Of a stretch of 64,000 nucleotides of DNA, positions 41,742-58,429 are shown piece after piece (the stretch's first letter is position 1; every line of letters starts with the position of its first letter). The position numbers and the translations under genes were made by a program. Origin of the DNA: Lachnospiraceae bacterium AC2029 (GTDB lineage: Bacteria > Bacillota > Clostridia > Lachnospirales > Lachnospiraceae); assembly GCA_000703065.1 (NCBI GenBank), contig JNLK01000001.1, forward strand, positions 372,001 through 436,000, written 5' to 3'. Under the pieces are notes generated by a model. That model ran no database searches. It had not been told where the DNA came from and saw only the letters and a list, made by a program, of their open reading frames with translations.

Positions 41742-43151
41742 TCACAGATCCATGGTCTCCCACATCTCCTTCTTCCACTCATCCTTACAGATCCCGGCGC
41801 TCTTCATCAACCTCACCAGAACCATGAAGGCTGCCTTCTTCTTGGCTTTCGTCTTTCCGACCTCGATTCCATAGCCGTTCACACCGCTGCAGGTACAGCT
41901 GCAGTACCATTCATCATCTACCAGGAGAGGATCCGTCTCCTTATCATGGAATTCATAGACCGGTGCCTCCACATACTTGTTCTGATAGAGCTCCTGCAAT
42001 TGATTGATGGCATCCTCCAGCCGTGGTTCGATCCCGGCGTCAGCGAGCCGGATCCAGAGACCATGATCCATGACGAAACAATACGCCCGCTCTGCAGCCT
42101 TCTCTCTTGCCCTGCTCCTGGTTTCCTCTTCAGAGCCAACCATCTGCGCTGTCTGCACTCCGATATCATTCTCCGGGACAAAGTAGCGTAGCGTACAGAA
42201 GTACCGCTTCTTACCCGGTCTACCCCCGGTCATTTCAGTTAATTCATATTCCGGCATCTGCCCAAAATGCTTCTGATGCCAGGCATTAAACAGTTCAAAA
42301 TGTGTCGCCTTCAGAAACTCATCCGACCGCATCAGCTGAACCTCGACCAGGCGATCAACCACATCCTCCAGAACCCGCCAGTTCCAGCCGGAGTCTGCAG
42401 CCACTGCACCGATCAGCGCCTCCATCATATCCTCCCTGGCTGCTTCCGACGGTTCTTCCCCGGAGCCATACAGAATAAACTGATCCAGCCCAAGGAGCAT
42501 CGCACGCTCACTCAGATACTCCCGACAGATGAAATGCTCCCGGATCCTGCTCAGTTCCCCTTCGTCATGTACGGAACGGAACGGTCCGTCCGTATGGTCT
42601 GCATCCACCTCTGTCAGCTGCCGGGATATCTCCTGCGTAACACAGAGATTCAGAACGGAATCCCCGAAGAATTCCAGCTGCTCACAGTCAGAGATACCGT
42701 ACTCCACAGCAAAGGCCCTTCTGGTAAAGGCCTGACGGAGCAGATTCTCATTCACAAACTCATACCCGATGATCTGTACAATATCTGACACTGGGGACGG
42801 AAGAGGCAGCTTCAGCAGATTTAAATGGGACGCCATGTCCTCCTCCCAGCCTTCGATGTCAAACCCATCATCCCAATAGTCCAGGCCCTTCTCAGGGACA
42901 TATGCGCCGTCTGAATCCTCACATTCCAGATCAGGATTCAGGCTATAGTCAGGAAGCAACCTTCCCTCATCCACCAGGCCATCCATGTACTCCTTGATGT
43001 CCAGCAGTTCCTCCACCTTCTCATCGCCGGCAAGCATATCAGCATCCTCTGCTTCCCAGTAGTCATCCTGCCCGTCCATCACAGGTTCCGGCCAGGGGCA
43101 GCTGTCCGGCCACGGTTTCATTGCAACGTTTCGATTCACTCTTTTCGACAT
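41742..43151 (-). CDS. atypical ribonuclease III with acidic N-terminal extension
   Basis: I chose ATG 43151 (MSKRVNRNVAMKPW), which has GGAGGTTTTTTT upstream. The protein has 469 residues, about twice the usual RNase III length. Residues 1-115 are a very acidic extension of unknown role. The RNase III domain covers about 120-275 and keeps all four catalytic acids: CEQLEFFGDSVLN (Glu160, Asp164) and EDMMEALIGAV (Asp241, Glu244). Two segments resembling double-stranded-RNA-binding domains follow, about 282-365 (HFELFNAWHQKHFGQMPEYEL...AREKAAERAY) and 380-460 (AINQLQELYQNK...GKTKAKKKAAFMVL). It probably cleaves structured or double-stranded RNA. Its place in a defence-like region hints at a role against foreign RNA; that is inference. 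Confidence 0.88.
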   Translation of the reverse strand: MSKRVNRNVAMKPWPDSCPWPEPVMDGQDDYWEAEDADMLAGDEKVEELLDIKEYMDGLVDEGRLLPDYSLNPDLECEDSDGAYVPEKGLDYWDDGFDIEGWEEDMASHLNLLKLPLPSPVSDIVQIIGYEFVNENLLRQAFTRRAFAVEYGISDCEQLEFFGDSVLNLCVTQEISRQLTEVDADHTDGPFRSVHDEGELSRIREHFICREYLSERAMLLGLDQFILYGSGEEPSEAAREDMMEALIGAVAADSGWNWRVLEDVVDRLVEVQLMRSDEFLKATHFELFNAWHQKHFGQMPEYELTEMTGGRPGKKRYFCTLRYFVPENDIGVQTAQMVGSEEETRSRAREKAAERAYCFVMDHGLWIRLADAGIEPRLEDAINQLQELYQNKYVEAPVYEFHDKETDPLLVDDEWYCSCTCSGVNGYGIEVGKTKAKKKAAFMVLVRLMKSAGICKDEWKKEMWETMDL

Positions 43152-43528
43152 AAAAAAACCTCCATGCATTTTCCCGGCACATCCGGCCGGTTATTATTAC
43201 ATGAAGGGCATGATTTCTGTTCACTTTTCACCCGCACCATATGATGACCGCACCACTGCAGCCGAAGGAGGTCAGGCTACAGTACTGCCGCGATATTCAT
43301 ACAGTTTGAGCACCGATCCCATATCCACATCTATCTCCCTGCTACCTCTCTGCCCGAAAGCCCCGGCGCGTCACCGCCAAAACTGTCGACCAGGATGATA
43401 CGCACTGAGCCAAATGCCTCATGCCATCCATGCAAGGATTATTATAGGGGAAATGGGATGGATTTACAAGGGATTCTTTATTACAGGGCTTATTGCTGGT
43501 TGAGATTCTTCTGTGATCATTACTCTTA
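43152..43528. other. intergenic region without recognisable gene
   Basis: Short open frames on both strands lack ribosome sites and coding character. GC content is higher at 43330-43400 than in the flanks. The minus strand near 43185-43200 (GTAATAATAACC) may contain the -10 of the RNase III gene, without a clear -35. I see no repeats or hairpins of note. Confidence 0.3.
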
Positions 43529-43957
43529 TCAAAAGGCACTCTCCAGCGTAAATGTTGTTATTTCATCCTTTTTCGTACTAACAAGTTCTCGTATATCATC
43601 CTGCGACAGGAGTAATCCCGTCGGATTCCTTCCGATGATCACATACTGATTCTCCGAATCCATAACGATATACTGTCGCAGATTATCATCAAGAAGAATA
43701 TCAGCATTGTCTATGATAAATATCTTTCCCTTTGACTTTCTGATAGCCGTTTTATACCCCTTATTATGATCCAGATAATTTAGGCATCTCACCCGCTTAT
43801 CCTCAGATGAATACTCCAACAAAAAAGAATACACCGCTGATTTTCCGGTTCCGGAATCACCGGTAATAAATGTCACATTTGAATCAAGTTGAAAATCCAC
43901 AATATAGTTCGTATGCCTTGTCTGTATTCTATCAAGAATGACCGGTTTAATTTTCAT
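43529..43957 (-). CDS. very small P-loop ATPase of a three-gene unit
   Basis: The protein has 142 residues. Residues 29-41 carry a Walker A motif (TFITGDSGTGKSA, P-loop 33-40) and residues 79-85 a Walker B-like strand (IFIIDNAD). A later strand (NQYVIIGRNP) fits the sensor position of ABC/AAA-type ATPases. It lacks the long helical insertions of SMC/OLD ATPases, so it is near the minimal P-loop size. The start ATG overlaps the end of the DUF4869-like gene by 11 bp, so translation is likely coupled. It is the last gene of a unit with 43947-44387 and 44388-45074. Function unknown. Confidence 0.85.
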   Translation of the reverse strand: MKIKPVILDRIQTRHTNYIVDFQLDSNVTFITGDSGTGKSAVYSFLLEYSSEDKRVRCLNYLDHNKGYKTAIRKSKGKIFIIDNADILLDDNLRQYIVMDSENQYVIIGRNPTGLLLSQDDIRELVSTKKDEITTFTLESAF

Positions 43958-44387
43958 CTTTCCACCACTCTCTTAATTCTTCATAATCTTTAAACACATG
44001 AAGCCCCCGGGAATCAACCGCCTCCACCTCTTTCATGGTAAAAGCAATCATCGGATAATCACAGTACACCTTCCCGGATTCCATAGCATATATTGCTTCA
44101 AGTGCATTTTCTCCGCACTCTGCAATATCAAATATCAAATCGGGGTTATACATAATATTCAGTGCTGTCTTACACCCCGTAGAAAGCTTATCAATGTTGA
44201 GCCTTGTCCCATCAAACCTCGAAGCGATGGAATACTGATCAAGCATTTGGGAATTGTCTATCCGACTGATCACATCGCCGGCCCTCTGATCCAGCATTCC
44301 AACTGTATTCTTATTGAAATATACATCGTTGATCCGCACAACTTCCATAGTTTTCGGAACTGTTTTTTTCTTATATACTGTTATCAT
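43947..44387 (-). CDS. DUF4869-like protein
   Basis: The protein has 146 residues, no signal peptide, acidic. The pattern VYFNKNTVGML...VISRIDNSQML, then LNIDKLSTGCKTALNIMYNPDLIFDIAECGENALEAI matches what I recall of DUF4869 (a VYFDN strand, an IDKSE motif, LSGGVKTLILM and NxxxCGDNC), cut here into pieces. The molecular function of that family is not known to me. The upstream stop codon abuts this start directly (44388/44387) and the next gene overlaps it by 11 bp, so the three genes form one tightly coupled transcription unit. Confidence 0.75.
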   Translation of the reverse strand: MITVYKKKTVPKTMEVVRINDVYFNKNTVGMLDQRAGDVISRIDNSQMLDQYSIASRFDGTRLNIDKLSTGCKTALNIMYNPDLIFDIAECGENALEAIYAMESGKVYCDYPMIAFTMKEVEAVDSRGLHVFKDYEELREWWKDEN

Positions 44388-45074
44388 CTATAAACCTGCT
44401 TTCGCAAAAGAATCCCTTAGAACGGAATAATCAAATATCGTCTTTATCTTATCATTCGATGCTAATCGTTTCTGATCAAGACCACAAATATCGTCTGCCG
44501 CTCTGGTTTTCCAATCACAACAATCGATTATGAAACATTCACCAAGCTTGCCCTTTGTCGTTTCAAACCCAGTATTTCTGGTTATTTCAAATAACATCTT
44601 CGCTGACAACTGTTCCGTGTTCAGTTTCTTTGAATAACCAAGTGTTTCCTTTAACACGGACAAACGATCAGCGTCACCCCCATTACGGATTAGATCCACA
44701 AATTCAGATTTTAACTCTAGCAATTTCATACGCTTGTCCTTCAATTCATCTTCCTCAGCAAATATCCAATCCTCAAGCAATTGAAATGATAAAAGCACAA
44801 ACTCAAATGAATGAATCTTGATCACAGCCACATTGTTTTTGCCTTTCACCACAGAATAAAGCCGCTGTGTTTCTCTAAGGACATCCGGATTGTCAATCGC
44901 ATAGTCCATCAGAACATAATACCTGTCATCACTATTCAGTTTAGAAACCGCTTTACACAGCTCGGTATTATTTCTTTTGGACTCGACAACAAATCCATCG
45001 AATAATGTGTCGAAGATCATTTTCCAAAATTCGAAACCGGAGCCTGTATCTTCACACCATATGTATGTATTCAA
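44388..45074 (-). CDS. TOPRIM-like protein, first gene of a three-gene unit
   Basis: The start is TTG 45074 with GAGGGATGTTAC upstream. The protein has 228 residues. It opens NTYIWCEDTGSGFEFWKMIF, an acidic residue after a beta-strand followed by a helix, and continues with YYVLMDYAIDN, an acidic strand end. This order (E, then D...D) resembles TOPRIM nuclease folds such as in OLD and DUF4435 proteins, though the spacing is not the canonical DxD. A Glu-rich helical middle (about 105-165) and a basic C-terminus follow. The gene pairs with a DUF4869-like gene and a mini P-loop ATPase, which suggests a split ATPase/nuclease-like system. The TOPRIM reading is tentative. Confidence 0.6.
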   Translation of the reverse strand: MNTYIWCEDTGSGFEFWKMIFDTLFDGFVVESKRNNTELCKAVSKLNSDDRYYVLMDYAIDNPDVLRETQRLYSVVKGKNNVAVIKIHSFEFVLLSFQLLEDWIFAEEDELKDKRMKLLELKSEFVDLIRNGGDADRLSVLKETLGYSKKLNTEQLSAKMLFEITRNTGFETTKGKLGECFIIDCCDWKTRAADDICGLDQKRLASNDKIKTIFDYSVLRDSFAKAGL

Positions 45075-45425: not shown

Positions 45426-46037
45426 TCACTCCATACGCTGAATTCCTCTTCTTATCTTTTTTACAACATCACACAACTCTCTTACAAAGGAATCACCATC
45501 TATGGCTAACGGAGTGATTTCCTCCTCATATTCCTCCTGTGTCAACGCATCATCTCCCGCGGCATGCATCCAATGATTACGTTCTTCTACCCATTTCTTA
45601 ATCTGGTTTAAAAGCGGATTGTCAATCTGACCATATTTAGATATGAGGTTCCCGCTTTTTTTACTTCTTTCGACATTAATGATTGTCCGGGGAACATGGA
45701 TACAATCATTAACCATCTTCTTCGGATAGTTTACCTTTTTTATGGATTTCAATACTTCTTTAGAAGCAGGCGGAATACCAACATCCAACAATTCCCACTG
45801 GGCTATGGTCTGATTCTTCTTTGCCAGTTTGACTTCATCAATCAACTGACCCAGCATTTTAGGTTTCCCATCCGGATTCTTCAGATCTAAACCTGCCATT
45901 TTCGCAAGAGTCTTCATTCTGTCATCAATGATCATATATTCAATAAACACCGCTTCGAAATAGTACTTATCATCAATGGCCGCGTCCATTTTATTAATCA
46001 ACAATTTATACCAACTTCCCTTATTTCCTGAACCCAT
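45426..46037 (-). CDS. HEPN-motif protein (putative RNase)
   Basis: I chose ATG 46037 (MGSGNKGSWYKLL), which has AAGGAGATGTAGT upstream. The protein has 203 residues and is mostly helical, with no signal peptide. Near the end WVEERNHWMHAAG contains R-x4-H (Arg153, His158), the catalytic signature of HEPN ribonucleases, in the usual helix context (ERNxxxH). An early helix (YYFEAVFIEYMIIDDRMKTLAK) is typical of the first HEPN helix. HEPN proteins act in toxin-antitoxin and abortive-infection systems. The upstream neighbour, 28 bp away, is a truncated FRG-like fragment. The family is inferred from the motif and helical layout. Confidence 0.7.
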   Translation of the reverse strand: MGSGNKGSWYKLLINKMDAAIDDKYYFEAVFIEYMIIDDRMKTLAKMAGLDLKNPDGKPKMLGQLIDEVKLAKKNQTIAQWELLDVGIPPASKEVLKSIKKVNYPKKMVNDCIHVPRTIINVERSKKSGNLISKYGQIDNPLLNQIKKWVEERNHWMHAAGDDALTQEEYEEEITPLAIDGDSFVRELCDVVKKIRRGIQRME

Positions 46038-46065
46038 ACTACATCTCCTTTTTTCTATTTTTAAT

Positions 46066-46557
46066 CTACAATGACTCCATACTAATCGATTCTTTAATCC
46101 CATCACATACTATTTCTGTATTATCAGGAAACAAGAATTCTTTTGTTATTCCCACGAGTTTCAATTGTTCGCGAATCCTCTCTTTCTTATTATTGGGAAT
46201 TGTAATAATTGTTTGCACTAATTCAGAAACTTTATCAAGCGATACAAGTTCATTTGTAATGATTGATTTATTATCTTTGTTTTTATGTATACGATTTGGA
46301 AAAATGATAAATTTACCGTCCTGATTTATCTGTCTGCGATTAACTGCTCCAACATCGACTATCATGGGCTTTAGCAAAGAATCAATATATGGATCATTAT
46401 CTGTTTCTTTTTCCCAATCGGGATAGATAAGCGACACCGCATAGTGTTGATGATAAAACGAATATCTGTAGTTTTTAATCGAAGTGATAGCATTGTTAGT
46501 CAAGCGATATGTATCAGCAATGATATTTGCAAATGGATTATACGCAGATACAGGCAT
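46066..46557 (-). pseudogene. 5'-truncated FRG-domain-like gene fragment
   Basis: An open frame of 163 codons begins exactly where homology to rfbB stops (46558/46559) and has no ribosome site. Its C-terminal two thirds, NRRQINQDGKFIIFPNR then EQLKLVGITKEFLFPDN, fit the C-terminal half of FRG domains (RxxxQxGxF..., then LGI...LFPD), which occur in phage-defence proteins. The N-terminal (F/Y)RG part is missing. The original gene was probably cut when it was joined to the rfbB fragment. It might still be expressed with the HEPN gene downstream, but I regard it as a remnant. The FRG assignment is moderately supported. Confidence 0.5.
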
Positions 46558-46558
46558 T

Positions 46559-47085
46559 CCATAACCAGCAGGTCAGCCCCGGCCTTGGAGCTGGAATAGG
46601 GGGGAGCTGGTATGGATCGGTGTAGTCTCCGTGAAGAAGAGATCCGGCCGGTCCAGAGGCAGATCCCCGTACACCTCATCCGTGGAAACCTGATGATAAC
46701 GGATATTGCCGAACTTCCGGCAGGCATCCATCATCACTTGGGTTCCGATGATATTTGTCTCCAGGAAAATGCCGGGGTTCTCTATGGAACGGTCCACATG
46801 GGACTCCGCTGCGAAGTTCACAACAATGTCCGGCTTCTCCTCTTCGAATACCTTCTCCACTGCCTCGCGGTCGCAAATGTCTACCTTGTAGAAGCGGAAA
46901 TGTGCAGCCTTCGCCACGTCATAGTCCGGGTTCTGCTCGTCCAGTAACGGAGCAAGCGTGGACAGATTCCCCGCATAGGTCAGCTTGTCAATGCAGACGA
47001 TCCGGTAGTCCGGATGTGCGTCCAGCATGTGGTATACAAAGTTACTTCCAATAAATCCGGCACCGCTGGTTACGATAATGATCAT
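46559..47085 (-). pseudogene. decayed 5' fragment of an rfbB-like gene
   Basis: From ATG 47085 the reading frame matches the first 175 residues of the intact dTDP-glucose 4,6-dehydratase encoded at 57380-58429, at clearly high but not complete identity. Three defects are visible. The dinucleotide motif reads TSGAGFIGS instead of TGGAGFIGS. An extra C in a C-run near 46600 shifts the frame after SSP, so the original frame ends LFQLQGRG-stop, while PYSSSKAGADLLVM continues in another frame. Finally homology ends abruptly at about 46559, where the FRG-like fragment begins. The divergence from the intact copy means it is not a very recent duplication. Confidence 0.85.
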
Positions 47086-47251: not shown

Positions 47252-48901
47252 TCAGATACTTCTGAAACTCCTCAACAAATTGCCCGATGTGCAGCCCATT
47301 AAATTTGGCACTACGGACATAATCCGGAACTCCTCCTCATATCGGAAATGCACCTCAATCCTCTTCTCATCCCAGATTTTGATGTGATCGATCAGTTTTA
47401 CCACTGTTTCCCGGTCAAGCTTCGTGATATTACGATACTCGGCAAAATGCAGCATCCAAACGAAAGTCTTCCCTTCTCCACTGATCAAGTCAGTTTTCTG
47501 CTGTTCTATCCGCCGGATGCTATCCTCCATCTCCTCGATCCGCCTCACATAATTCTTCCGAAGGACCTCACACTCTTTCGTTCTGATGGTGCCATCCCGC
47601 AGACTTTCATCCAGTTTTCGCATAAAGCACTGTATTTTATCGCATTCCTGCCTCTTCTCAGAAACCAGCCGATCATATCGCATGATATACTCACATTCCG
47701 GCGTGATCTCTCCAAAGGCCCGGAGCTTACCAAGCAGATCACCAACTGCCACCGCTTTTTCGCGAATTGCCTCGATCACCAGTGCTTCGAGGTCCTCCTC
47801 TCTGATCGTGTGGCTGGTACAGCCACACCCCGTATGAAACGTAACACAACGGTAATAACAGTAACGTATCCCATGATCACTAACTGCCTTCCGGATCATA
47901 TTCTGTCCGCAGTTCGGACAGGTCAGATATCCGGAAAAAGGATAAGCACAGGTTCTTCCCTTCGGCGTCAGGATTGACTTTTTCAACTGATCCTGAACAG
48001 CCCAAAAGATATATTCATCAATGATCGGTTCGTGCGTTCCTTCCACTCTGATCCAATCATCCCGCCTTTTAGGAATGCTTCTTTGGGCCTTATGACTCGG
48101 CATCATCGTCTTCCCCTGCACCAAAACCCCAATATACACCTCATCCTCCAGGATACGTCTTACTGCCGGATACGCCCAGTGTGCCATTTTTCCGGATCGG
48201 AAACTTGTCGAAGCCCAAATACCTTTGGAAATCTTATACTCCAACGGACTAAGCACATCTTCCCGATTCAATTTACTCACAATTCTGCCGATGCTCATTC
48301 CCTGCAGATACCATTGAAAGATAGAACGTACAATGTCTGCCGCATCAGGATCCGGAATCAGATGATAATGATTCTTCGGATCCTTGCTGTAACCATACAC
48401 AGGATTCGTACCTGTATACTTCCCATGCTGCCTCTTCATCTTCTGCTGCGCCCTCTGCTTTAGGGAAAGATCCATACAATACGCCTCATTGATCAGATTC
48501 TTCATCGGCACTAACCAGGAAGCCTGATCCTGTTTCTCCATGCTGTCATAATTATCGTTGATGGCAATAAAGCGGACTCCCATAATCGGAAATACCTGTT
48601 CCTGATATATCCCGACATCGATATAATTTCTCCCGAACCTGGACAAATCCTTCACGATAATACAATTCACTCTGCCCGCCCGAACTTCCCCCATCATCTC
48701 CAAAAAACCCGGCCGGTTAAAATCCGTTCCCGAATAACCATCATCCGCTTTCTCCGAGACGATTTCAATGTCCGGGTGACAGGCAACATACTCACGCATG
48801 ATCAGTTTCTGGCTCACAATACTATCACTTTCCGTCCTGTCTCCATCCGCTTGTGACAACCGGGAATACAGGCACGCCCTGCTCTTTTTTATCTCATACA
48901 T
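47252..48901 (-). CDS. large serine recombinase C
   Basis: I chose ATG 48901 (MYEIKKSRACLYSRLS), which has AGGAGGAAAACGTCT upstream; a TTG further upstream has none. The protein has 549 residues. The resolvase domain (about 1-150) has the catalytic Ser16 in YSRLS and the motifs DDGYSGTDFNRPGF and VKDLSRFGRNY. The recombinase domain follows, with a zinc ribbon (CPNCGQNM...CYYRC) and a C-terminal coiled coil (RLVSEKRQECDKIQCFMRK). Such enzymes integrate and excise mobile elements at att sites. It is the last of three recombinase genes in one operon. Downstream of it the next recognisable gene is the decayed rfbB. Confidence 0.92.
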   Translation of the reverse strand: MYEIKKSRACLYSRLSQADGDRTESDSIVSQKLIMREYVACHPDIEIVSEKADDGYSGTDFNRPGFLEMMGEVRAGRVNCIIVKDLSRFGRNYIDVGIYQEQVFPIMGVRFIAINDNYDSMEKQDQASWLVPMKNLINEAYCMDLSLKQRAQQKMKRQHGKYTGTNPVYGYSKDPKNHYHLIPDPDAADIVRSIFQWYLQGMSIGRIVSKLNREDVLSPLEYKISKGIWASTSFRSGKMAHWAYPAVRRILEDEVYIGVLVQGKTMMPSHKAQRSIPKRRDDWIRVEGTHEPIIDEYIFWAVQDQLKKSILTPKGRTCAYPFSGYLTCPNCGQNMIRKAVSDHGIRYCYYRCVTFHTGCGCTSHTIREEDLEALVIEAIREKAVAVGDLLGKLRAFGEITPECEYIMRYDRLVSEKRQECDKIQCFMRKLDESLRDGTIRTKECEVLRKNYVRRIEEMEDSIRRIEQQKTDLISGEGKTFVWMLHFAEYRNITKLDRETVVKLIDHIKIWDEKRIEVHFRYEEEFRIMSVVPNLMGCTSGNLLRSFRSI

Positions 48902-48926
48902 AGACGTTTTCCTCCTCTTCCTCAAT

Positions 48927-50309
48927 CTAAATGAACCCGATCATTTTAAAAAACGCCTCTGAGAATTTCCACTTTAGCTCCACATGATCTTTATCATGGA
49001 AAACCACTTTTTCCAAAGCAATATCCGCAACCTCCCTTGTGAATTCAATGGCATTCGAACTTTTCCGAATCCTCTCAAGATCTTCATAAAGCTCTGCCTT
49101 CTGCATACTGTCCACTTCCATCGTTTTCACCAACCCGATCATCCTCTGCAGCTCATCCCAAATCAGTCTGTGCAGTTCTTCTTCCCTGATCACATCCTGC
49201 GAACAGCGTATCTCCCCCGTCTGACTTCTGGCATAGGAACAAAAGAAAACCATATGCGGATCACTTCTCGGGTTTCGCACATCATATCTGCAGCTTCTGC
49301 CGCAGACGCCACATCTCACCTTCTTGAATAACGGGTAATTCCCATTGATTTTCACCCTATGCTCTGTTTTACGAAACTTTCCCTGTGCCCTCTCATACTC
49401 CTCTTTTGAAACAATAGCTTCATGCATTCCCTCAACAACGATCCATTCCTCTTCCGGGATAGGCGTGCTCTTGGAACTATGCAGGAAAAAGTGTTCAGAT
49501 GTATGCGAAACAACCGCACCGGTATAGGTTCTGTTCTGCAAGATCCGCTTGATCATTGTCCCATCCCAGCAGCTCATTTTAGAAATGTTCATAAACAATC
49601 CCTGCTTCGGATGCTTCCGTTTGTAGTAAGAAGCCGGCGTATCATACCCTCGATCATTCAGCAGTACAGCGATATGATTCGGTCGCATACCGGACAGAAA
49701 CCGATCAAATATCTCCCTCACCACCTTAGCCGTTTCCGGATCCCGGATCATCCTGCCATGATCCTTCGGATCCTTCTGATACCCATACGGAACCATACCA
49801 TTTACCAACACACCCTGCTTCATTTTGGCAAACTTTGCCGTTTTAACTTTGACAGAAAGATCCCGACTGTAAAAATCATTGACGATATTTTTCACCGCAA
49901 GTTCCAGACTTACATTTGCCCCATAAATGTTGCCACTGTCATAATGGTCATTGATCGAGATAAAACGAACTCCCGTGATCGGGAAGAAGCGGTCCATATA
50001 CTTACTCGTCTCAATATAATCCCGTCCCAGACGGGAAAAATCCTTTACGATCACACAGGTTATCTCTCCGTTCCGGATCTTCTCAATCATCCTCTCAAAT
50101 CCCGGCCTGTTAAAATTCGTTCCCGTAAAGCCATCATCATAGAATTCCTCCTGCTCACATACTGCAAGATCCTCAGAATTTCCGATATAGTCCTCAATCA
50201 GATTCCTCTGATGGGAAATGCTTTCGCTTTCTTTTTTTCCCGACTTTTCGTTCAGATCCCTGTCTGCCTGTGATACCCGATAGTACTTGGCAATTCTCAT
50301 CTTCTTCAT
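48927..50309 (-). CDS. large serine recombinase B
   Basis: The protein has 460 residues and ATG 50309 overlaps the stop of recombinase A (ATGA), with GGAGGAGCATACGT upstream. The catalytic Ser13 lies in YYRVS; DDGFTGTNFNRPGF and VKDFSRLGRDYIE follow. The zinc ribbon reads CGVCGRSCRYD...FFCSY. The C-terminal coiled coil is shorter than in its two neighbours. It is about 90-100 residues shorter than A and C. Three serine recombinases in a row are known from some integrative elements of Bacillota, where more than one is needed for excision; I do not know whether that applies here. Confidence 0.92.
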   Translation of the reverse strand: MKKMRIAKYYRVSQADRDLNEKSGKKESESISHQRNLIEDYIGNSEDLAVCEQEEFYDDGFTGTNFNRPGFERMIEKIRNGEITCVIVKDFSRLGRDYIETSKYMDRFFPITGVRFISINDHYDSGNIYGANVSLELAVKNIVNDFYSRDLSVKVKTAKFAKMKQGVLVNGMVPYGYQKDPKDHGRMIRDPETAKVVREIFDRFLSGMRPNHIAVLLNDRGYDTPASYYKRKHPKQGLFMNISKMSCWDGTMIKRILQNRTYTGAVVSHTSEHFFLHSSKSTPIPEEEWIVVEGMHEAIVSKEEYERAQGKFRKTEHRVKINGNYPLFKKVRCGVCGRSCRYDVRNPRSDPHMVFFCSYARSQTGEIRCSQDVIREEELHRLIWDELQRMIGLVKTMEVDSMQKAELYEDLERIRKSSNAIEFTREVADIALEKVVFHDKDHVELKWKFSEAFFKMIGFI

Positions 50310-52000
50310 ACGTATGCTCCTCCTTCCTCGATCAACTCTCCATATAATGCCTCCAGCCGTTTTCGTTCTTCCACATATTTCAGACGGATTTCCATCCTCC
50401 CGTCCTCAAATATCTGCACGCTTTCGATCATTGATCCCACAAGCTCCGGAGTCAGTCCGGACTGCTTTCGCGAATCTCTGACCGCCCGGATCCACACACC
50501 TGCACCATCCGTAACAGACAGACAATCCTCACGTCTTCTTTTCAACTCCTTTAGCTCCGCTTCCAATTCATCGTAACGATCATTCAAAGGCGCCTTCTTA
50601 GCTGTATACTCCCCTGCATCCATCCGCTTCTCCACATATGCCTCAAACAGGCTTTCCTGCTGTTTTGCAACACTTTTCAAGCTTTCCGTAACAGAACGAA
50701 CCTCTGTACTAAAGGATCTTTCGAGTTGCGACCCCACCTTAACTCTGGCCTTCTCATATCGTTCAATACACCTCCGCTGTTCCTTTATCAGATTCAGTGC
50801 AGACCATTCAACCTCCTCAACCGGAATAGAATGCCTGGAGCATTTCTCATTCTGACTGTCAAGATACCGTGCGCATACATATCTGGATCTACAACGACCG
50901 GTTCCCGTATCATGTGCCTTGATAAAGCGCATCTTTCCACCGCAATCTCCGCAGAATATCCGTCCCTTGAACCGATCAATGATCTTTGCTCTGTGTTTCT
51001 GCCCTACCTTATGCTTTCGTTTCATCTCCGCCGATTTCCTGTCCAATATCTTCTGCACTTCATCGAACTGTTCCTGTGTCACAAGCGCTTCATGCATATT
51101 GGGGAAAACCAGCCACTCATCCGGTTTTGTCCGGTGTTTCAATACTCCCTCCGCCAGATTCTTTGGCATCCTTCCGTACACGATACTTCCCGTATAAATA
51201 GGATTCCGCAGCAAATCGTTTAGTGTTTTCGTATTCCACCGGCTCACTGCATATTTTTCATTATGCCATATCCCCAGTTCATACTTCCTTGCCGCAGGAG
51301 TCGGAGCATCCAACCCATCCAGCAACCGGATAATCTCACACCACCTTTTCCCTTCGATAGTCCAGGCGAAGATCCGTTTCACATAAGGAGCCGTCTCTTC
51401 GTCAATCTCATAACGATATGCCACACTCTTCGATTTCACATACCCATACGGCCCGAAGGAAGGCAGGATCTGGCACTTTCTTTGCCTCTCCTGAAAAGTC
51501 GAATTGATCTTCCGAGATATATCCTTTGCGTACTCAGCGTTCAGCAAATTCTTCATTGCTATCATAAAGCCGGCTCCGGAGGCATCCATCGAAAAGCTGT
51601 CAAAATTATCCGCGATCGAGATAAAACGTACACCCAGAAAAGGAAAAACATTTTCCAGATAAATACCGGCATCCAGATAGTTCCTGCTGAACCGCGACAA
51701 GTCCTTAACGATGACACATTTTACTCTTCCGTTTTGGATATCTTCCAGCATCCGGTTCAGCGCCGGCCGATCCATATCTGTTCCCGATCTTCCATTATCC
51801 TCATACACGTCATACAATTCCAGTTCGTCATGCTTCTGCAGAAAATCCATGCATATCTTCTTCTGGTTTTCCATCGACATGCCGTCATCGTCCTTCCCGC
51901 TGTTTTCCGCCGAAAGCCGTAGATAGACCGCTGTAGATATACCCCGATCAAACTCCGATCCTACTGCATCAAACGGAAGGTTTCGCCTTTTTCTCGCCAT
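50306..52000 (-). CDS. large serine recombinase A
   Basis: The protein has 564 residues and ATG 52000 follows AAGGAGGTGAAACC. An N-terminal extension of about 20 residues precedes the resolvase domain, with catalytic Ser30 in YLRLS and motifs EDNGRSGTDMDRPAL and VKDLSRFSRNY. The zinc ribbon reads FCGDCGGKMRF...RYVCARY, and a long coiled coil follows (QLERSFSTEVRSVTESLKS region). It is the first gene of the recombinase operon, transcribed away from the divergent istA gene. Confidence 0.92.
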   Translation of the reverse strand: MARKRRNLPFDAVGSEFDRGISTAVYLRLSAENSGKDDDGMSMENQKKICMDFLQKHDELELYDVYEDNGRSGTDMDRPALNRMLEDIQNGRVKCVIVKDLSRFSRNYLDAGIYLENVFPFLGVRFISIADNFDSFSMDASGAGFMIAMKNLLNAEYAKDISRKINSTFQERQRKCQILPSFGPYGYVKSKSVAYRYEIDEETAPYVKRIFAWTIEGKRWCEIIRLLDGLDAPTPAARKYELGIWHNEKYAVSRWNTKTLNDLLRNPIYTGSIVYGRMPKNLAEGVLKHRTKPDEWLVFPNMHEALVTQEQFDEVQKILDRKSAEMKRKHKVGQKHRAKIIDRFKGRIFCGDCGGKMRFIKAHDTGTGRCRSRYVCARYLDSQNEKCSRHSIPVEEVEWSALNLIKEQRRCIERYEKARVKVGSQLERSFSTEVRSVTESLKSVAKQQESLFEAYVEKRMDAGEYTAKKAPLNDRYDELEAELKELKRRREDCLSVTDGAGVWIRAVRDSRKQSGLTPELVGSMIESVQIFEDGRMEIRLKYVEERKRLEALYGELIEEGGAYV

Positions 52001-57379: not shown

Positions 57380-58429
57380 TTATCTGTTTGAGTACATTTT
57401 CTCATAATACTTCTGATACTCCCCGGAAATGATTTCTTCCCACCAATCCCTGTTATCGAGATACCACTGAATCGTTTTCTTAATACCATCCGCAAACTTC
57501 GTCTCCGGTAGCCAACCCAGCTCCTCATGAATCTTCGTCGGATCGATGGCATAACGCAGATCATGGCCCTTACGATCCGTAACATACGTAATCAGCTCCT
57601 CGCTCTTCCCAAGCTCCTTAATGATCAGTTTTACGATGTCGATGTTCGCCATCTCGTTATGGCCGCCGACATTATATACTTCCCCGATCCGTCCCTTGTG
57701 GATGATTAAGTCGATTGCCTTGCAATGATCCTCCACATAGAGCCAGTCACGGACATTCTTCCCCTCACCGTATACCGGGAGCGGTTTGTCAGCAAGACAA
57801 TTCGCTATCATCAGCGGAATCAGCTTCTCCGGGAAATGATACGGCCCATAGTTATTAGAACACCTGGAAATGGTCACCGGCAGACCATAGGTTCTGTAGT
57901 ATGCCATTACCAGCAGATCCGCCCCCGCCTTGGAACTGGAATAGGGAGAACTGGTATGGATGGGCGTAGACTCAGTAAAGAAAAGATCCGGTCGATCTAG
58001 CGGAAGGTCACCATATACCTCGTCTGTGGAAACCTGATGATAGCGAATATTGCCGAACTTCCGGCAAGCATCCATCATGACCTGGGTTCCCATAATATTT
58101 GTCTCCAGGAAAATGCCGGGATTCTCGATGGAACGATCCACGTGGGACTCTGCCGCAAAGTTTACAACAATGTCCGGTTTCTCCTCCTCGAACACCCTCT
58201 CCACCGCTTCGCGGTCGCAGATGTCTACTTTGCAGAAGCGGAATCGAGCAGCTTTCGATGCGTCAAAGCCTGAATTCTTCTCGTCCAGAAGAGGAGCAAG
58301 TGTAGAAAGGTTGCCTGCATAGGTCAGCTTGTCAATGCAAACGATCCGATTATCCGGATGCTCATCAAGCATGTGGTATACAAAGTTACTTCCGATAAAT
58401 CCGGCACCTCCGGTAACGATAATTGTCAT
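57380..58429 (-). CDS. rfbB: dTDP-glucose 4,6-dehydratase
   Basis: The protein has 349 residues, the standard length. The dinucleotide motif TGGAGFIGSNFVYHML is intact, and the catalytic motifs are present: STDEVYGDLP, YSSSKAGADLLV (YxxxK) and SRCSNNYGPYHFPEKLIP. It converts dTDP-glucose to dTDP-4-keto-6-deoxyglucose on the route to dTDP-rhamnose or amino-deoxy sugars. rmlA, rmlC and rmlD are not in the window. A decayed 5' fragment of a related copy lies at 46559-47085, about 10 kb away across the mobile region. Confidence 0.95.
   Translation of the reverse strand: MTIIVTGGAGFIGSNFVYHMLDEHPDNRIVCIDKLTYAGNLSTLAPLLDEKNSGFDASKAARFRFCKVDICDREAVERVFEEEKPDIVVNFAAESHVDRSIENPGIFLETNIMGTQVMMDACRKFGNIRYHQVSTDEVYGDLPLDRPDLFFTESTPIHTSSPYSSSKAGADLLVMAYYRTYGLPVTISRCSNNYGPYHFPEKLIPLMIANCLADKPLPVYGEGKNVRDWLYVEDHCKAIDLIIHKGRIGEVYNVGGHNEMANIDIVKLIIKELGKSEELITYVTDRKGHDLRYAIDPTKIHEELGWLPETKFADGIKKTIQWYLDNRDWWEEIISGEYQKYYEKMYSNR

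Follow-up and report, generated by a model that had tools for sequence, protein, structure and literature searches.

In the PARIS system, an ATPase (AriA) and a TOPRIM protein (AriB) are encoded separately or as a fusion, and AriB stays sequestered by AriA up to the arrival of a phage trigger (PMC12409363). A review lists PARIS as a proposed Class 4 of the OLD family with its components in separate genes (PMC10568477). In E. coli YbjD, the anti-phage phenotype comes from the ATPase part by itself, and the Toprim part can be dispensed with (PMC13261556).

The window analysed here, 64,000 nucleotides of Lachnospiraceae bacterium AC2029 (contig JNLK01000001.1, positions 372,001 to 436,000 of the forward strand), carries a compact unit of three small genes. 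It belongs to a cassette family that, like PARIS, has adjacent or fused genes for a TOPRIM-like candidate effector and a P-loop ATPase. Its features are as follows.

44388..45074, minus strand: gene A, a TOPRIM-like protein of 228 amino acids with a TTG start, the likely effector.
43947..44387, minus strand: gene B, a DUF4869 (PF16163) protein of 146 amino acids, read as a degenerate signature half of an ABC ATPase.
43529..43957, minus strand: gene C, a minimal P-loop NTPase of 142 amino acids with the Walker A motif GDSGTGKS and a Walker-B-like IIDNAD.
43947..43957, minus strand: the 11-bp overlap of B and C, from the ORF coordinates.

The resemblance to PARIS has clear limits. Neither AriA nor AriB is found among the PADLOC matches of A, B and C at E up to 1, and there is no DUF4435; C is just 142 amino acids long, the unit includes an extra protein (DUF4869), and A bears a four-cysteine tail.

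According to the preliminary description, the three genes abut or overlap and act together. The coordinates bear this out, with A and B meeting at 44388/44387 according to the ORF coordinates and the overlap of B and C falling at 43947-43957, and so do the conserved gene order, overlaps and fusions of the relatives. The 11-bp overlap between B and C is found in 67 of 78 tallied loci (77 measured, one not resolved), and in 39 of 43 A and B abut or share 4 bp. Median dN/dS, taken from pairs with dS of 0.1-1.2 that share members, is 0.105 for A (20 pairs), 0.108 for B (32) and 0.124 for C (58), and intact A is under purifying selection. Since the A-B-C unit recurs with matching overlaps and dN/dS lies near 0.1, chance or mis-called ORFs can be rejected: A, B and C are real genes, conserved as one unit.

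The search for B in 99 relatives gave matches in 11 genomes at E<=0.001 and in four at E<1e-40. These four are the window's own genome and three others, which hold four loci with the A-B-C cassette; one of the loci (L003, also listed as L044 and L085) lacks the start of A. Across the order, DUF4869 occurs in 42 of 392 genomes, some with several copies, and A in 11 of 392. All 12 A matches in these genomes adjoin B and C, counting the divergent A of L052, which is known by its motifs, and the fused copy of L172. When B was searched for in 84,980 species genomes, 192 relatives came up, and the best 80 of the 192 come nearly all from Lachnospiraceae, Oscillospiraceae, Ruminococcus and other Clostridia. 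Two of the 80 are labelled Bacteroidales MAGs (L148 and L161), labels that may be binning errors. The A-B-C unit is common to many gut and rumen Clostridia. Five locus pairs are duplicates (L043/L084, L044/L085, L045/L145, L054/L105 and L059/L141), and the motif counts below were accordingly made on distinct proteins.

The architecture of the unit was annotated in 60 regions. The A-B-C order of the window recurs among the relatives, the order B-C-A occurs in L055, L056, L057 and L058, and L052 and L053 share that order with a divergent A. A fused C-A gene stands beside B in 21 of the 60 loci (23 ORFs of at least 300 amino acids), with the fused gene first in L068 and L072, and in one case (L269, 368 amino acids) B is fused to C. 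The partners thus stay together while the gene order changes, which argues for a shared complex. Under a strict motif rule, a P-loop neighbour accompanies 52 of 64 B ORFs. Among the 12 that fail the rule, two have an adjacent profile match (L270 and L273), two have a damaged C (L065 and L283), one lies at a contig end (L050) and seven have no P-loop gene nearby (two each in L080 and L082, and one each in L276, L277 and L278). A universal pairing of B with C is ruled out by these seven of 64; pairing is nonetheless common.

Some loci depart further from the usual plan. Ten DUF4869 copies (L269-L276 and L080) sit in the 8.8-Mb assembly G309, which is 76% complete and 2% contaminated; some have no P-loop gene nearby and one is fused to a P-loop gene. 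In L057, L083 and L108, a single locus brings together two different types of the unit, whole or in part, next to each other. A 738-amino-acid ORF at L147:3788-6004 joins A to an upstream part that by eye resembles an ABC-transporter membrane domain, and is probably a rearrangement.

Sequence searches place A in no described family: with E up to 1 allowed, Pfam, NCBIfam and PADLOC all give nothing for it, which extends to DUF4435, AriB and OLD-like_TOPRIM in Pfam and PADLOC, and the sequence search for solved relatives found none that is credible (best E 2). The AlphaFold2 model, built from 50 sequences, is confident (pLDDT 91.5, pTM 0.89) and shows a beta-alpha-beta-alpha-beta-alpha-beta core followed by helices, the beta-alpha order of TOPRIM. 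In the PDB, Foldseek yields a single match at E<0.001, which is also the best one: Xanthomonas OLD in its C-terminal region (6njv, E 3.4e-4, prob 1.00), with a TMq of only 0.38 and an rmsd of 8.2. The next PDB matches, at E>0.01, are arginine decarboxylase chains, many response-regulator receivers and other folds. Against viral structure models nothing was found at E<0.001, and the weak matches include topoisomerase, RloB-like and Toprim-like entries; a literature search on RloA/RloB with TOPRIM found no paper. In hhalign, the profile of A scores 14.2 against 14 OLD-type proteins, below the reversed control (16.2). The same method shows A and the C-terminal half of the fused proteins to be homologues across the greater part of their length (prob 96.6, E 4.9e-10, 147 columns). 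By its model, then, A is predicted to have a TOPRIM-like fold whose nearest solved structure is the C-terminal region of an OLD nuclease.

The conserved residues of A were compared with the OLD active site as given in PMC7049728. E8 and D9 are present in all 54 distinct near-full-length split A proteins (two further rows are gapped), and D57, D61, E91 and four cysteines in all 56. The acids fall at TOPRIM positions: E8 follows strand 1, D57 closes strand 3 and E91 follows strand 4. Despite the invariant E8 and D57, the canonical TOPRIM centre of Glu and DxD is not kept: the second aspartate of DxD lies at +4 (D61) in split A and is absent from the 16 fused forms, which read [AV]DG. Two divergent relatives have a VEG-type motif, VEGKEY in L052 and VEGPN in L275. 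From its sequence, the acidic cluster of A probably binds metal, and the C-terminal cysteine motif (GEC-x4-CC-x10-C) would bind zinc. The VEG-bearing divergent A, of 280 amino acids, is encoded at L052:7036-7878 and L053:7264-8106, and its bigger C-terminal cysteine cluster is possibly a zinc ribbon.

The loss of the DxD pattern bears on whether A is an enzyme at all. It could be a non-catalytic Rossmann module of TOPRIM- or receiver-like type, acting in sensing or binding, with the enzyme activity of the unit confined to C. The displaced or missing second aspartate and the many receiver-domain matches ranked below OLD would fit such a role, whereas the invariance of E8, D57 and E91 in near-full-length split forms and the VEG-type motifs of the two divergent relatives speak against it; a non-catalytic A seems unlikely. 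The TOPRIM protein of the preliminary description therefore survives as a predicted TOPRIM-like fold matching OLD 6njv, for which a canonical nuclease centre is not supported, the second aspartate of DxD being shifted or missing.

C is, judged from its motifs, a minimal P-loop NTPase, and its Walker A sequence agrees with the 142-residue P-loop protein proposed at the outset. Within Pfam it comes closest to nSTAND3 (E 1.9e-5), at 24.8 bits, below the gathering score of 27.2, and there are weak AAA matches in addition. Among 76 rows chosen independently of any motif, 75 keep K39, 76 keep D83 and 75 keep R110; a set of 122 distinct proteins, some of which had been selected through their P-loop, gives 121, 119 and 120 for the three residues. 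The near-invariant Arg110 follows the fourth core strand, a placement that we take to be STAND sensor-like. C has this arginine and its best Pfam match in common with STAND proteins, and differs from them in scoring below the gathering threshold, in being an NTPase core only and in having a partner that is ABC-signature-like. Lamassu provides the best PADLOC match (LmuB, E 1e-6), which joins residues 1-79 of C to positions 3-57 of a 611-position model and so covers a small part of it, and no LmuA is found among the seven window proteins scanned. Other P-loop matches in PADLOC include a weak one to GajA (E 0.017).

B belongs to DUF4869 (PF16163) at 37.8 bits over a cut-off of 28.9, as the preliminary description had supposed for the middle gene. 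That description knew of no system of this composition, and a literature search likewise found no paper naming DUF4869 or PF16163. The AlphaFold2 model of B, from 65 sequences, has a pLDDT of 95.1 and a pTM of 0.90. No PDB structure matches it in Foldseek at E<0.001 (best E 2.2e-3), with TMq of 0.25-0.41 among the 50 matches listed, and the sequence search for solved relatives found none that is credible (best E 0.43). All 50 of the listed PDB matches are ABC-type ATPases, as we judge from their titles or from what the entries are known to be (ABCF1, cohesin SMC, Rad50 and ABC transporters). When the B profile (112 rows, 105 distinct) is aligned by hhalign with 17 ABC domains of the same genome, LSTGCK falls on LSGGQ. 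This alignment scores 24.7; 60 column shuffles average 13.5 and reach at most 22.2, reversed profiles give 14.1 and 14.4, and HHalign's own probability is just 6%. The motif stretch scores 24.0 against AAA_21 proteins (reversed, 11.3 and 12.2), and the B profile scores 18.1 against OLD-type proteins, below its reversed control of 21.2.

The LSxGxKT segment of B reads LSTGCKT and starts helix 70-80 of the model, and S69, G71, C91, G92 and N94 are present in all 105 distinct proteins. B has no Walker A or P-loop, and the position of the Walker B strand reads LIFDIAEC, with no DE pair. Past the motif, helix, strand, helix, strand, hairpin and helix follow one another, an order that we take to be that of the C-terminal half of an ABC domain. 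Two methods thus agree, with weak scores, in suggesting that B is like the half of an ABC ATPase that bears the signature. The signature of ABC proteins works in trans (PMC7049728), and the natural reading of B would therefore be that it closes over the nucleotide held by C. DUF4869, a family to which no function had been assigned, in this way gains a structural identity that can be tested, together with its partners.

The comparison with OLD nucleases (Class 1, and Class 2, which includes GajA) gives a mixed picture. Shared features are the order of ATPase then TOPRIM in the fused relatives, the OLD C-terminal region as the best solved match of A, and the likeness of B to the C-terminal half of an ABC domain. 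Unlike OLD, the ATPase of the cassette is split into two polypeptides and a single ATPase-TOPRIM chain occurs only in relatives; A has no OLD-like_TOPRIM match in Pfam and does not keep DxD. C, again unlike OLD, has an arginine where we would expect the H-loop histidine of ABC proteins. Gabija differs in that no GajB helicase adjoins the unit, which is flanked by a 226-amino-acid protein with no Pfam match and by an RNase III-like protein. The split OLD-like ATPase and nuclease first suggested for the locus fits the predicted folds and the ABC-signature likeness of B; profile comparison links neither A nor B to OLD proteins.

How might the three proteins work together? We give an even chance to a nucleotide-switched effector system, working along the lines of PARIS or of a dismantled OLD nuclease. 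A would be the effector, with its probable metal-binding acidic cluster. C would bind and probably hydrolyse ATP, and the LSxGxKT segment of B would close over that nucleotide in trans, making the pair a two-protein NTPase sensor. At rest, B-C would keep A inactive. A trigger, most plausibly a protein of an invader or a damage signal, would alter the nucleotide state and free or activate A, which would then cut or block nucleic acid, so that growth stops. The anatomy of the cassette is well supported, and its function is read from comparison: complex formation, the trans role of B, the restraint of A, the trigger, the substrate of A and the benefit to the host are all put forward as what such a switch would involve. 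If so, the OLD/PARIS group would gain a three-protein form whose ATPase could be separated into two reagents, a nucleotide-binding part and a signature part.

The pattern of gene decay sets A apart. A gene was counted as intact at 90% or more of its profile; four of the 80 loci lie at contig ends and were set aside, and the resulting count of 76 is unaffected by the five duplicate locus pairs. All three genes are intact in 52 of the 76. A is broken or missing beside intact B and C in 20, A and C are both broken in four, and C is broken with A intact in none. Three of the 20 are borderline (L115, L131 and L136, with A coverage of 0.76-0.87), leaving 17 without them. Corrected for the greater length of A compared with C, the chance of 20:0 is about 6e-5 and that of 17:0 about 3e-4, assuming independent loci, which these are not (L099 and L100, for example, are near-copies). 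As the loci were collected through B, the decay of B is not comparable and the contrast is between A and C. A is thus the part that preferentially decays while B and C stay intact. On a B-C tree made by a quick method, in which 21 of the 76 inner branches are starred, the broken-A state changes 21 times (18 without the borderline rows), and at least 11 of the changes are forced by starred branches. Broken A is as scattered on the tree as in shuffles (mean 20.6), so the losses look recent and repeated. In five fused relatives (L069, L070, L076, L077 and L078) the chain, as judged by eye, breaks off inside the TOPRIM half or shortly ahead of it.

A more specific proposal, offered tentatively, is that the unit is an undescribed OLD/PARIS-like immune switch of gut Clostridia, its ATPase divided between a minimal STAND-like C that would bind ATP and a relic ABC half (DUF4869) that would supply the signature segment in trans, the two holding a zinc-tailed TOPRIM effector whose cost would drive its repeated loss while the B-C restraint is kept. 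If the repeated loss of A does reflect toxicity, these loci would amount to a natural experiment on how costly a TOPRIM effector is to common gut bacteria. The same decay, with the dense overlaps and a standalone placement, could also be produced by a toxin-antitoxin-like addiction or stabilisation cassette, in which A is the toxin, B-C acts as its ATP-dependent antitoxin, and addiction instead of defence maintains the unit. This explanation overlaps in part with the mechanism of the switch. A two-protein NTPase antitoxin would be unusual in our judgement, however, and the strong purifying selection on intact A and the C-A fusions better suit an enzyme with built-in control, which makes an addiction cassette distinctly improbable.

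The preliminary description had also placed the unit in a defence-like setting, and here the relatives do not follow it. Around the 80 loci, 297 neighbour proteins fall into 253 clusters, and neighbours on both sides are shared in only five locus pairs, which are near-copies. Since the neighbours differ at nearly every locus, the unit appears to be a standalone accessory cassette. For the PADLOC comparison, 146 of 284 selected neighbour proteins were used (150 taken at random, minus four DUF4869 or P-loop genes), against 145 of 179 ORFs from 20 hand-picked stretches of four one- or two-contig assemblies (G000, G004, G306 and G439). Among the matches listed, type I restriction-modification specificity and mad5 lead in the neighbours, with three proteins each, and mad3 (four proteins) and AriA (two) were found in the controls. 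The neighbours match 150 PADLOC models and the controls 50, the neighbour figure being inflated by redundant specificity models. No clear difference in defence families appears between the 146 neighbours and the 145 controls among the 25 families listed for each. As these are the 25 commonest families, listed with no per-protein counts, enrichment is neither shown nor strictly excluded. Pfam, run on the neighbours only, most often returned acetyltransferases (four proteins), Methylase_S (three), AAA_21 (two) and KptA (two). A defence island, as read from the neighbours, is thus not clearly supported by PADLOC when controls are considered.

The cassette is rare in the phage and plasmid records searched. 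The 118 pattern matches in viral contigs include no confirmed relative. Annotated phages gave one record for A and five for a fused relative, all of them unannotated human faecal 'Bacteriophage sp.' contigs, and plasmids none for B and three for a fused relative.

This rarity in phage and plasmid records, the lack of a clear defence context and the 20 of 76 loci in which B-C stands without an intact A would also suit a regulatory or maintenance module of the host, with B-C as an NTPase switch of its own, A as an optional TOPRIM-like adaptor for DNA or RNA, and no role in immunity. Members of the OLD family can be housekeeping proteins, as with archaeal Cran1, which acts in cell-cycle progression (PMC12796447). 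The patchy spread of the genes (42 and 11 of 392 genomes), their varied neighbours and their multiple copies are unlike a core function, and we consider a maintenance role rather doubtful. B-C may nevertheless do something of its own, as it can persist without A, and the YbjD ATPase, which acts alone (PMC13261556), is a reason for caution in the same direction.

The evidence on the nucleotide-switched effector thus runs both ways. The conserved A-B-C unit with its translational overlaps, the fusions, the adjacency of A to B and C, dN/dS near 0.1 and the one-sided decay of A argue for it, as do the predicted fold of A near OLD, the VEG motifs in two relatives, the ABC-like B and the precedent of PARIS. 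The points against it are the lack of clear defence enrichment, an A with no OLD or AriB sequence match, the DxD that is not kept, low TM-scores, a score of B against OLD below the reversed control, the seven of 64 B ORFs with no P-loop gene and the persistence of B-C without A. On two matters the preliminary description had left itself open to refutation, and both came out on its side: structure prediction returned a TOPRIM-like fold for A, and the three genes are conserved together.

In the window itself, genes for a Fic protein, for an RNase III-like protein and for a PDC-S15-like fragment are among those around the unit. The RNase III-like protein (41742-43169) has 475 amino acids with a long N-terminal extension and matches TIGR02191 at 116.8 bits, under the equivalog cut-off of 166.25. 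On the other side, a 163-amino-acid protein (46066-46557) matches the C-terminal half of the PADLOC candidate PDC-S15 (E 2.3e-26). Its gene overlaps the 226-amino-acid gene at 45426-46106, which has no family match in Pfam, NCBIfam or PADLOC, and the two are perhaps a broken or split candidate defence gene. Farther out lies an N-terminal fragment of 170 amino acids (46573-47085) that by eye resembles dTDP-glucose dehydratase (RmlB), followed by three proteins at 47252-52000 that by eye are serine-recombinase-like. The fragment is 86% identical over 300 nt to a full-length copy 11 kb away (57380-58429), and the position of the serine-recombinase-like genes between the two suggests an insertion or duplication.
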